From a virus, in IMG/VR virus record IMGVR_UViG_3300030109_002597, positions 1 to 28,295 of that record: a stretch of 28,295 bases of DNA. One strand, given 5' to 3'. The number at the start of each line of letters is the position of its first letter. Within the stretch, counting starts at the first letter, position 1. Shown piece after piece: positions 20,162 through 22,986 of this stretch. The notes below the pieces were generated by a model. The model was not told the DNA's origin and made no database searches. It saw only the letters and a list, made by a program, of their open reading frames with translations. Position numbers and translations under genes: made by a program.

Positions 20162-21298
20162 TCAGAATGCAGCAGGCTTGGTGGCAGTGCCAGCAAACAG
20201 TTCAACTGCAGCAGCAGGGTTCAGATAGTCTGCGCCCATAGCCAAACGGCCAAGGATCACATCACCTTGGTAGATGACGGATACGTCACCACTGGTTACT
20301 TGAACCTGAGGACCGATAGCCTCAACACAACCAGCAGCTTCGCGCTGGAAGATAAGACCACAGCTGTTAGCGAATTCGGTTTCTTCACCGTACTCGTTGT
20401 TGATGCCAGCAACGTCTTTAGCAGCATCTTCAAGTGCTTCAGATACGAAAGTACCAGTGTTACCGGGATCGGTTACTCCGGGGTTCGTAGCAGAGCCAGT
20501 TCCATACTTAGTTCCGTACTGTGAGAAGAACGGAATGTTCATGGACTTGTAGATGTGGATACCAGCAATCTCAATGACGCCTTGGCCACCCTGCAGGGCA
20601 GTACCTTGAGCATCACGGTTCACCAGACCGTTGGAACCAACAGCTTGGATCAGTTCGTAGTACTGGCGTGGGTTGAGAACGCCGCAGCGTCCGTCGCTAC
20701 TGATTCCCTTTTCGTCCATCGCAGCTGCAGCGTCATAGAACGCTTCAACCAGTGCGGATGAAGAGTAGGCATCAGATGCATTGGTAGTAGTACCAACACG
20801 GATCTGTGTACCACCTGGCTCGACGAAGTTAGTTGCACTCACAGGTGAGGCAGCACGTGCACCGCGAGTAATTGCACGGAAGATCAGGCGGTCATATTTT
20901 TGCGCCAAGGCATAGCCGATTTTGCGGCTAATTTCTGAGCGAAGATCGTAATGAGAAAGAGTCTCATCAAGGTCATATACGAATGCGCTGGAGATCAGCA
21001 GATCGTCAACCGTGATGGTCTTCTCAGCCACGGGCGGCGCACCGTCGTCATTACCGAGAATCGCATTTCCAGGAGTATGGTACTCAGCTTTCGTGCGACC
21101 GGTGTAGATGAACTGCAATGACTTGCCGTTCTTAAGTGTACGCTTCATCACCAAATCGCGAGCGATCGCGTTATGCTGGAAGCCTTTGAACATTTCTCCG
21201 GAGAAGAGCTTCAAATACAAAGCTCGCTTATCACCGGATAGATTAGCCTGACCAATCTGAGTTAGATCAGTGGTCAGTGTAGAATTTTGTTGTGCCAT
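20162..21298 (-). CDS. Major capsid protein (T7 gp10-like)
   Basis: This 378-residue protein (T7 gp10A has 345) has the family pattern LYLKLFSGEMFKGFQHNAIA with RTLKNGKSLQFIYTGRTKA, then YHTPGNAILGN. It also has VDDLLISSAFVYDLDE, HYDLRSEISRKIGYALAQKY, and late GVLNPRQYYELIQ. It forms the icosahedral shell with the HK97 fold. The start ATG 21298 has no purine Shine-Dalgarno; the leader just upstream is pyrimidine-rich (CUCUUACUCCUAUAA). Its 3' end carries a strong terminator. The base composition looks slightly more GC-rich than the neighbouring internal-core genes, as does psbA. Confidence 0.96.
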   Translation of the reverse strand: MAQQNSTLTTDLTQIGQANLSGDKRALYLKLFSGEMFKGFQHNAIARDLVMKRTLKNGKSLQFIYTGRTKAEYHTPGNAILGNDDGAPPVAEKTITVDDLLISSAFVYDLDETLSHYDLRSEISRKIGYALAQKYDRLIFRAITRGARAASPVSATNFVEPGGTQIRVGTTTNASDAYSSSALVEAFYDAAAAMDEKGISSDGRCGVLNPRQYYELIQAVGSNGLVNRDAQGTALQGGQGVIEIAGIHIYKSMNIPFFSQYGTKYGTGSATNPGVTDPGNTGTFVSEALEDAAKDVAGINNEYGEETEFANSCGLIFQREAAGCVEAIGPQVQVTSGDVSVIYQGDVILGRLAMGADYLNPAAAVELFAGTATKPAAF

Positions 21299-21407
21299 TT
21301 ATAGGAGTAAGAGTATGTATAACCAACTCCAAGATCTTGGAAAATTTTTTGTGGTCTATCCCACCGTCTAGACGGCAAAGGGTATCCTCGTAAGGGCCAA
21401 TGCCAAT
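21299..21407 (-). other. Capsid gene leader with two perfect palindromes
   Basis: This is non-coding sequence before the capsid gene. It holds a 14-bp perfect palindrome TCCAAGATCTTGGA (21328-21341) and a 12-bp one CCGTCTAGACGG (21364-21375). A weak sigma70-like arrangement (TTTTCC, 17 bases, TATACA on the minus strand at about 21318-21346) is possible but poor at -35. No T7-type promoter consensus known to me is evident. It is a plausible regulatory leader for the most highly expressed structural gene: operator, RNA hairpins or processing site. Confidence 0.4.
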
Positions 21408-21454
21408 AAGTGAGGGAGGACTCGAACCTCCCTGTTAGCCTTAACTAATCACTT
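21408..21454 (-). other. tRNA T-arm-like mini structure downstream of psbA
   Basis: On the minus strand an outer 6-bp stem (AAGUGA with UCACUU) encloses a small GUUA-AGGC-UAAC hairpin and a strong arm GGGAGG-UUCGAGU-CCUCCC. The 7-base loop UUCGAGU matches the T-loop consensus of tRNA (UUCRANN). No anticodon arm, D-arm or CCA is present and the element is only 47 bases, so it is not a normal tRNA. The 5' strand contains the stop codon of the 17-residue ORF. It could be a tRNA relic, an integration-site remnant, or an RNA-stabilising or processing structure. Confidence 0.5.
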
Positions 21455-21502
21455 GGTGTATGCGACACCGCGATACACGTAACGACGAGCGATACGTACC
21501 AT
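21449..21502 (-). CDS. 17-residue micro-ORF with strong Shine-Dalgarno
   Basis: ATG 21502 begins MVRIARRYVYRGVAYTK and stops with TGA. The leader CGGAGGUAAACAUC puts a perfect GGAGG eight bases before the ATG, one of the strongest ribosome sites in this window. The peptide is basic with a YRGVAYTK end that resembles the core of the cyanobacterial and cyanophage DUF4278 family (YRGxxY). The role is unknown. The ribosome site lies in a UUCG hairpin and the stop codon lies in the T-arm-like structure. It may be a functional peptide or a leader controlling the capsid message. Confidence 0.5.
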   Translation of the reverse strand: MVRIARRYVYRGVAYTK

Positions 21503-21509
21503 GATGTTT

Positions 21510-21549
21510 ACCTCCGAAGAGATCTAACAGTCCCGTTCCATACTGTTAG
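21510..21549 (-). promoter_or_regulatory. Two hairpins covering the micro-ORF ribosome site
   Basis: Minus-strand RNA forms an 8-bp perfect stem CUAACAGU/ACUGUUAG with a 10-base loop (21524-21549). Immediately after it is a 5-bp stem AUCUC-UUCG-GAGGU (21510-21523). The second stem buries the GGAGG Shine-Dalgarno in a stable UUCG-capped hairpin. The layout suggests translation control or RNA processing or stability; this is inference from complementarity, without energy calculation. Confidence 0.5.
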
Positions 21550-21562
21550 TAGCATGCGTCTT

Positions 21563-21733
21563 CTACATTGTGTCGAACAAGACTTCCAGTTTCAATTTGT
21601 CTAGTTGACCTTTGAGTACCAGCATTGCTTGTTGCTCAGCTGGATCACCGCCAGGCCATTGATCTAAATAGAATTCAACAGCCTTGTGCATCAGATCAAC
21701 ATAGGCATCATTAACTCTAATCTCGTATTCCAT
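21563..21733 (-). CDS. 56-residue conserved cyanophage protein
   Basis: ATG 21733 opens MEYEIRVNDAYVDLMHKAVE and continues FYLDQWPGGDPAEQQAMLVL. It is an acidic, helical protein resembling a short hypothetical protein I recall in several marine cyanophages (the FYLDxWPGGDPxEQ pattern). The function is unknown. It starts two bases after the stop of the 35-residue membrane peptide and is the last sizeable gene of the psbA cassette before the micro-ORF. Confidence 0.7.
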   Translation of the reverse strand: MEYEIRVNDAYVDLMHKAVEFYLDQWPGGDPAEQQAMLVLKGQLDKLKLEVLFDTM

Positions 21734-21735
21734 AA

Positions 21736-21843
21736 TTAAGAAGATGAACGGACTTTTTTATGCCTAGGTGAACTAGGTCTATGGTCCCAAAAGATATAAG
21801 AGGCGACAGACAATGTCACCAATGTGCCTACAGCAATTATCAT
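21736..21843 (-). CDS. 35-residue single-span membrane peptide coupled to psbA
   Basis: ATG 21843 overlaps the psbA stop (ATGA), the usual sign of coupled translation. The peptide [19 protein letters not shown] has one hydrophobic helix at residues 1-19, followed by a basic Ser-rich tail ([16 protein letters not shown]). Size and topology resemble the low-molecular-weight photosystem II subunits (PsbI, PsbX, PsbK class, 35-45 residues), but I see no diagnostic motif of any of them. It could also be an unrelated membrane peptide. Translation is likely from coupling; the function is a guess. Confidence 0.55.
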
Positions 21844-22922
21844 CCAACTGAAGGAGCTACCAGTGCAACACTTGTAGTCTCAGCAGCAGCTAGATCAAGT
21901 GGGAAGTTATGAGCATTCCTTTCGTGCATGACTTCAAAGCCAAGGTTTGCACGGTTCAATACATCAGCCCAAGTATTAACTACTTGTCCTGTAGATGCCT
22001 GCACCGACTGGTTAAAATTAAAGCCATTAAGATTGAAAGCCATAGTGCTGACACCCAGAGCTGTAAACCAAATGCCGACGACAGGCCAAGCGGCAAGGAA
22101 GAAGTGGAGTGAGCGGCTATTGTTAAATGAAGCATATTGGAAAATCAAACGTCCAAAATAACCATGCGCAGCCACGATGTTATACGTCTCCTCTTCTTGT
22201 CCAAACTTATAACCATAGTTCTGGCTAATTTCTTCAGTGGTTTCACGAACCAAAGAAGACGTGACAAGACTGCCATGCATAGCTGAGAAGAGACTCCCAC
22301 CAAATACGCCGGCAACACCAAGCATATGAAAAGGATGCATAAGAATATTGTGTTCAGCTTGGAATACCAACATGAAGTTGAAGGTTCCCGAAATGCCAAG
22401 AGGCATACCGTCAGAGAAGCTACCTTGTCCAAGGGGATAAACAAGAAAGACAGCAGTCGCCGCAGCGACCGGAGCAGAGTACGCAACAAAGATCCAGGGC
22501 CTCATTCCCAGTCGGTAACTAAGTTCCCATTCTCGTCCCATGTAAGAGAAGATACCGAGCAGAAAGTGGAACACCACGAGCTGGTACGGTCCGCCGTTAT
22601 AAAGCCATTCGTCAAGAGAACCCGCTTCCCACACTGGGTACAGGTGCAAACCGATGGCGTTGCTGCTAGGCACGACAGCGCCGGAGATGATGTTGTTTCC
22701 ATAAAGAAGAGAGCCAGATACAGGCTCACGAATACCGTCAATATCAACGGGGGGTGCTGCGATGAACGCAATGATGAAGCAAGTAGTTGCTGCAAGCAGG
22801 CAGGGGATCATCAGTGTCCCGAACCAACCTACATAGAGTCGATTATTTGTAGAGGTAACCCACTGGCAAAAGTCTTCCCAGGTAGAATTACGTCGTTGTG
22901 TAAGTGTTGAAAAGGTTGTCAT
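21840..22922 (-). CDS. psbA: Photosystem II D1 protein
   Basis: This is a full-length 360-residue D1. Its numbering is one ahead of the standard numbering. Expected residues are all present: Tyr162 (YZ, standard 161), Asp171 (170), Glu190 and His191 (189, 190), His199 (P680 ligand 198), His216 and His273 (non-haem iron), Ser265 (264, QB site), His333, Glu334, Asp343 and Ala345 (C-terminal processing site, followed by a 15-residue extension). Standard position 130 is Glu (here 131), the form typical of high-light D1. D1 turns over fast in light; a phage copy keeps PSII and ATP supply running during infection. The leader lacks a Shine-Dalgarno (AACUUUUAUUUUAAUG). No intron or frameshift. Confidence 0.98.
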
Positions 22923-22986
22923 TAAAATAAAAGTTCATGTCTATGTCGCCGGTAAGTAAGACCATTTTTAGGAGTTGGCTCTCCAT

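Follow-up and report, generated by a model that had tools for sequence, protein, structure and literature searches.

What are a perfect hairpin and a strong ribosome-binding site doing in front of an ORF of only 17 codons? The question is raised by a 28.3-kb virus record (the window hereafter, 28,295 nt analysed over its full length), in which the main genes run leftward on the minus strand. The order psbA, spacer, capsid gene places the window among T7-like cyanophages, and the hairpin and the micro-ORF sit in the psbA-capsid spacer, on the minus strand. A preliminary description had noticed here an 8-bp perfect hairpin, a second pairing AUCUC-UUCG-GAGGU that holds a GGAGG eight nucleotides before an ATG, and a basic micro-ORF ahead of the capsid leader. 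All these elements are found: the first hairpin occupies 21549-21524, the second 21523-21510 (five pairs, one of them U.G), and GGAGG at 21515-21511 is followed, after an 8-nt spacer, by ATG 21502. The 17-codon ORF, MVRIARRYVYRGVAYTK, has five basic and no acidic residues and ends at 21449, which leaves 150 nt to the capsid gene. Its leader had been taken for a regulatory module, and this agrees with our results, as the hairpin belongs to a known riboswitch class, glutamine-II. The stretch described earlier is the 3' half of the structure, which as a whole begins at 21753. Its parts and neighbours are the following.

21840-22922, minus strand: psbA
21745..21753, minus strand: 5' half of the aptamer, GUC + CGUUCA (pseudoknot strand, C1-A6 in crystal numbering)
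21739..21744, minus strand: 5' strand of P1, UCUUCU, pairing with AGAAGA (21564-21559) over 6 bp
21563..21733, minus strand: nested ORF of 56 aa (MEYEIRVND...LFDTM), PHROG 628, in the P1 loop
21559..21564, minus strand: 3' strand of P1, AGAAGA, starting with the AG of the nested UAG stop
21555..21558, minus strand: CGCA (C17-A20), linking strand, directly after P1
21542..21549, minus strand: 5' strand of P2, CUAACAGU, with both-side changes at 8/8 pairs among relatives
21532..21541, minus strand: loop AUGGAACGGG (A33-G42), pseudoknot and ligand pocket
21524..21531, minus strand: 3' strand of P2, ACUGUUAG
21510..21523, minus strand: SD hairpin AUCUC-UUCG-GAGGU, candidate expression platform
21449..21502, minus strand: YRG micro-ORF, 17 aa
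20162-21298, minus strand: major capsid gene

At the gathering threshold Rfam has no match in the whole window. A low-threshold scan of 21200-22950 returned a single one, RF01704 (Glutamine-II), with a score of 14.4 bits (E = 1.6; the cutoff is 33). In this match the hairpin described earlier is the second stem, P2, a perfect 8-bp stem CTAACAGT/ACTGTTAG with a 10-nt loop ATGGAACGGG, and the signature loop is AUGGAACGG. For this alignment Rfam used a local GUUC from the final stretch of the nested ORF, which we rejected because it lacks C1 and becomes GUUU in several relatives. The usual place of CGUUCA near CGCA is empty in the window; CGUUCA is found at 21750-21745, starting 192 nt before CGCA and carrying the same GUC prefix as in unsplit relatives. 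Once this 5' half is counted, both pseudoknot strands, CGUUC and GGAACG, are present, as are all the pocket bases (C1, G2, U3, G18, C19, A33 and A38-G42, derived from the pairs named in PMC6698751). P1 lies directly between CGUUCA and CGCA with 6 bp and a loop of unusual length, and P2 closes the signature loop. The window copy escapes Rfam because the aptamer is split, and since it stays below the cutoff as a contiguous element we call it a glutamine-II variant and not a plain member of the class. The element looks homologous to the glutamine-II riboswitch and is predicted probably to work like one. That its aptamer is split, with a gene nested in the P1 loop, we regard as very likely.

The relatives give the same picture. 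Of 20 relatives scanned at the locus, 14 reach the RF01704 cutoff (34.9–57.5 bits); 13 of these are unsplit (42.8–57.5 bits), the isolates P-SSP7 and S-RIP2 among them, and one is split (L079, 34.9 bits). Among the six failing loci four are split (L004, L005, L006 and L035), one carries a variant loop (L048) and one is cut by the contig end (L073); only one of the five split loci scanned thus passes. Six of ten whole records pass, all of them cultured T7-like cyanophages (S-RIP2, P-SSP7, S-TIP37, P-SSP3, P-SSP10 and S-RIP1). In the cultured S-SBP1 Rfam aligns model positions 25-60 only, i.e. the 3' half, at 19.6 bits, below the cutoff; the 5' half of its aptamer lies 167 nt upstream, with the annotated gp32 in between. 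The collapse of the Rfam score in the window and in S-SBP1 would also be expected if an insertion had destroyed sensing and the hairpins persisted as elements of mRNA processing or stability, a reading to which the comparison of split copies below assigns a low probability.

Viral contigs were scanned for split halves at two distance ranges, with at least 120 matches each, some of them by chance. At least 133 distinct split contexts were obtained, including the window and S-SBP1. The viral 3' halves that have a P2 of 5 bp or more and 260 nt or more of upstream sequence number at least 252; CGTTCA is near in 117, far in 135 and missing in none, although these totals are biased, as 120 of the 133 split contexts come from the split-pattern scans. 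In the far class, P1 of at least three contiguous pairs abuts both halves in 133/135 of the matches listed, and of at least four pairs in 115/135. Chance controls gave P1 of at least three pairs in 0/14 (P2 of at least 5 bp) and 7/119 (P2 below 5 bp) of the matches listed from bacterial genomes, and in 5/56 viral matches with P2 below 5 bp. The bacterial null set comes from one scan of bacterial genomes with at least 120 matches, of which the 80 listed look like chance and include no cyanobacterial genome. Later counts required P1 of at least three pairs, which dropped two of the 135 (L422 and L429); both are also without a YRG ORF. CGCA is invariant in the 133 contexts because the search pattern required it. 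The extended motif GT[AC]CGTTCA is found in 132/133 split contexts listed and G is the tenth base of the loop in 133/133; both the GT and this G lie outside the search pattern.

Both stems vary in a compensated way. Across 76 distinct P1/P2 combinations, 94.7% of the P2 cells are paired, against 63% on average and 68% at most in shuffles, and all eight pairs show both-side changes; the compensatory changes in related phages on which the preliminary description had staked its proposal are therefore present for P2. For the six pairs of P1, standard pairs make up 87% of cells in the same combinations (shuffles 68%, maximum 73%), with both-side changes at four of the six; the number of pair types, 15, is equalled by shuffles (maximum 15). 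It should be noted that the sequences are related and not independent, which inflates shuffle tests. In the clade of the window P1 reads UCUUCU/AGAAGA, UCUUUUUA/GUAAAAGA or UCCUUUUA/GUAAAGGA. Among 25 representatives with less than 80% ORF identity, P1 has at least 4 bp in 21, partner swapping (5000 trials) averages 9.1 and never exceeds 16, and sliding one strand by 1–3 nt leaves P1 of at least 3 bp in 0–3 of the 25. As the three-pair threshold had selected the rows, it is the four-pair and slide figures that carry the weight. By this comparative evidence P1 is shown to pair across the nested gene. Together with the fixation of bases outside the search pattern, the compensated variation of P1 and P2 among split copies argues against a broken riboswitch, which we consider improbable. 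In its favour, no expression platform is resolved and P2 is absent from the minimum-energy fold: when window RNA is folded without constraints, P1 and a GUUC/GAAC helix form, and P2 is replaced by another hairpin, CAUGCU/AGUAUG. Enforcing P1 and P2 costs 7.1 kcal/mol, with the pseudoknot and the ligand uncounted.

The upstream CGUUCA could also be part of something else, with the 3' half standing alone. CGTTCA is a mere 6-mer, the sub-threshold Rfam match used the local GUUC, and most split contexts were fetched by a pattern demanding a distant CGTTCA. A sample of 80 loci selected only for capsid similarity speaks against such a coincidence: 43 are unsplit and 13 split, and no readable 3' half in this sample is without a near or distant 5' half. 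Along with the exact abutment of P1 on both halves, the failure of the slide controls and the change of the local GUUC to GUUU in several relatives, this makes coincidence very improbable. The remaining loci of the sample are too truncated (14) or without the exact motif (10). Among the latter, three (L043, L048 and L054) have a variant loop that reads AGGGAACGGGG instead of ATGGAACGGGG, with T replaced by G at position 34; one (L057) is cut by the contig end, and in the other six the signature was not found within the stretch examined. A nested-type ORF stands ahead of the variant loop in L048.

Mapped on a capsid tree of 67 rows, the split state requires 8 changes, of which well-supported branches force at least 5 (shuffles 13.8), so gain, loss or exchange of this state occurred repeatedly. 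The unsplit state occurs in S-RIP2 and in L196, the latter sharing with the window the start of the SD hairpin, AUCUCUUCGG, yet having an ordinary P1 hairpin UCCC-UUU-GGGA. Unsplit relatives as a rule have CGTTCA 15–28 nt before CGCA. In two loci (L137 and L044) this distance is 49 nt, with a long P1 hairpin and no nested ORF; these long-P1 aptamers are a possible intermediate or remnant.

Between the two strands of P1 the window carries a complete ORF of 56 codons that matches phrog_628 (E = 5.9e–12; E = 5.3e–4 for one relative of the 54-aa type). An intact nested ORF of 53–62 codons is present in 132/133 split contexts listed, the exception being L397, with an in-frame stop in the nested ORF and an intact RNA motif. 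For the 126 distinct nested ORF sequences, dN and dS were compared within six size classes, using equal-length pairs that have 6 differences or more and an unsaturated dS. All 920 such pairs have the lower value for dN, and the medians give ratios of 0.06–0.18 (about 0.10 in the window's size class, 25 sequences). This pattern of substitutions shows the nested gene to be coding. Its protein is modelled as two helices (mean pLDDT 88.7). A PDB fold search gave nothing at E ≤ 0.001 (best 1.1), a viral structure library gave one match at this threshold, the S-SBP1 homologue, and NCBIfam had no match for three proteins tested.

The simplest view of this gene is that of a passenger, tolerated in a permissive loop of a working aptamer with no cross-talk. 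The length of the P1 loop does vary without a nested gene, from the usual spacing to the 49 nt of L137 and L044, and an aptamer cut into two strands still binds glutamine (PMC6698751), the cut there being in the A20/U21 linker and not in P1. The placement of the nested start and stop codons makes this view unlikely, as the passage of ribosomes should disturb the aptamer. The start codon lies 9–12 nt from the start of CGTTCA in 96/132 copies, within P1 or at its edge (e.g. UCUAUG), and the stop overlaps CGCAUGA or CGCAUAA in 99/132, so that the final codons run through GACGCA. The window has its start codon 5 nt beyond P1, and its UAG stop overlaps the base of P1, both thus being at the P1 edge. 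A 35-codon ORF (21736-21843, minus strand) was also noticed, whose ATG overlaps the psbA stop (ATGA) and which runs through the 5' half of the aptamer to end 2 nt ahead of the nested ORF start; the layout suggests coupled translation.

Downstream of the aptamer, the suspicion that the 17-residue peptide is a conserved micro-protein is supported, since a YRG ORF follows in 129/135 split contexts among the matches listed (4 are too short and 2 have none). Three of four longer YRG relatives match DUF4278 (PF14105) at E = 0.01–0.06 and 14.2–16.6 bits, below the Pfam gathering score of 25.3, and the fourth has no match; judged from its sequence, the YRG micro-protein resembles DUF4278. A short basic ORF ahead of a capsid gene might equally be the leader peptide of an attenuator, as the preliminary description had it. 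Within 20800-22400 no terminator-like site follows the micro-ORF, the only one lying upstream at 21820-21802, a number that shuffles reach as well (mean 1.5); the ORF is a member of a conserved family, YRG, and sensing is more likely done by the riboswitch. Attenuation is therefore scarcely credible, and we read the YRG peptide as the regulated product and not the sensor.

The SD hairpin is a natural candidate for the expression platform. It is kept in the window's clade with altered loops (UUCG, UACG, CUCG and UUA) and no both-side change, and is absent from L412, a row of these size classes that carries another ORF type. Its folding energy (22 nt) has a z of –2.23, with 7/200 shuffles as stable; for the 54-nt piece z is –1.35, with 16/200. 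By energy alone these pieces are modest; the element is lifted beyond chance by the comparison of P2 across relatives. The ribosome site had been described as locked: the hairpin itself is there, but locking that depends on the state of the aptamer is not seen in folding, as the SD is unpaired with a probability of 0.21 whether or not the aptamer is enforced.

Taken together, the data lead us to favour, with reasonable confidence, a working glutamine switch for the YRG micro-protein whose folding would compete with ribosomes on the nested gene. That the split aptamer senses glutamine is likely. With ample glutamine, the CGUUC/GAACG pseudoknot would form along with P2, and P1 would close over the nested gene. 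The folded aptamer may raise translation of the YRG micro-protein, as type 2 glutamine riboswitches, whose downstream proteins contain DUF4278, are reported to activate expression (PMC6316151). At low glutamine, or with ribosomes on the nested gene, the aptamer would stay unfolded and the micro-protein low. A ribosome on the nested gene would have to open P1 and often the linker too, and a folded aptamer should in turn hinder the ribosome. That glutamine binding competes with translation of the nested gene is suggested by the position of its start and stop in or beside P1, a reading we put forward with some reserve.

A further role of the nested gene's coding RNA may be that of a scaffold joining the two halves of the aptamer. 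A still more tentative reading makes the locus a two-gene RNA toggle, in which the aptamer and the gene in its loop are mutually exclusive and the coding sequence is selected so that the halves meet. Glutamine would close P1 over the nested start and switch YRG on, and translation of the nested gene would open the aptamer and switch YRG off. The predicted probability of P1 is higher with the native than with a synonymously shuffled nested ORF in 121/126 cases (median 0.95 versus 0.76). It is 0.82 versus 0.80 in the window's size class and 0.98 in both for the window alone, and the order is reversed in size class 193 (0.64 native versus 0.76 shuffled).

Group I and group II introns with ORFs in peripheral loops and discontinuous hammerhead ribozymes are known examples of structured RNAs whose hairpin loops tolerate long inserts, genes included. 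The present element is like them in this respect and unlike them in that they splice or self-cleave, while the present one, a metabolite aptamer, precedes a downstream gene. With glutamine-II (RF01704; PMC2864571; PMC6698751; PMC6316151) it shares the pseudoknot strands, CGCA, the AUGGAACGGG loop, P1 and P2, as well as a short DUF4278-like ORF downstream and a place in the picocyanobacterial world; the downstream-peptide arrangement described in PMC2864571 is the same as the aptamer plus short YRG ORF here. It differs in that the loop of P1 holds a complete gene of 53–62 codons instead of a few nucleotides, that the window copy is undetected by Rfam, and that it belongs to a T7-like phage and lies between psbA and the capsid gene. 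Marine phage Melnitz also carries a predicted glutamine riboswitch (PMC9004378). That one resembles the glnA RNA and is located in the 3' domain of a tmRNA gene, and the passages of PMC9004378 that describe it mention no nested gene. T4-like cyanophages are stated to carry a glutamine riboswitch as well (PMC9964418, PMC9602691); what PMC9860041 and PMC7760959 say in the relevant passages has no bearing on the nested gene.

T4-like cyanophages also have PHROG 628 genes, of the same protein family as the nested ORF. The aptamer motif was not found in six such regions (600 nt on each side), and the three readable homologues end in EL or KP, not DA. One T4-like phage, S-MbCM6, has an RF01704 match below the cutoff (25.9 bits) elsewhere in its genome. 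Our searches of open-licence papers found no case of a riboswitch aptamer that encloses a gene, and no account of this phage locus.

Two further RNA structures were noticed between the micro-ORF and the capsid gene. The capsid leader holds a conserved structured RNA (21406-21350, minus strand; TTGGCATTGGCCC...GTCTAGACGGTGGGATAGACCACA), with both-side changes at 6/14 predicted pairs in 17 aligned sequences; 62/91 loci have the motif GGGATAGACC in the 150 nt preceding the capsid gene, and Rfam has no match to this RNA either in the gathering scan of the window or in the low-threshold scan of 21200-22950. At the stop of the micro-ORF there is a tRNA-like minihelix (21454-21408, minus strand), formed by an AAGTGA...TCACTT stem and GGGAGG-TTCGAGT-CCTCCC. 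The latter resembles a tRNA T arm and has GGGGGG-TTCGATT-CCCCCC as its counterpart in L008; ARAGORN finds no tRNA. Speculatively, the minihelix may mark a processing site of the RNase P type.

The usual picture of a riboswitch aptamer is a compact, uninterrupted non-coding domain, and covariance models look for it in that form. The gene-bearing aptamer suggests that such a domain can be split by about 170–190 nt, mostly coding, with selection maintained, and that usual searches can miss split aptamers. It also suggests that ligand sensing and translation can compete on shared nucleotides. For marine phages it points to a likely sensor of nitrogen status in the structural-gene region, and the role of the YRG/DUF4278-like micro-protein in infection can be tested directly in the cultured S-SBP1 (Synechococcus WH7803).
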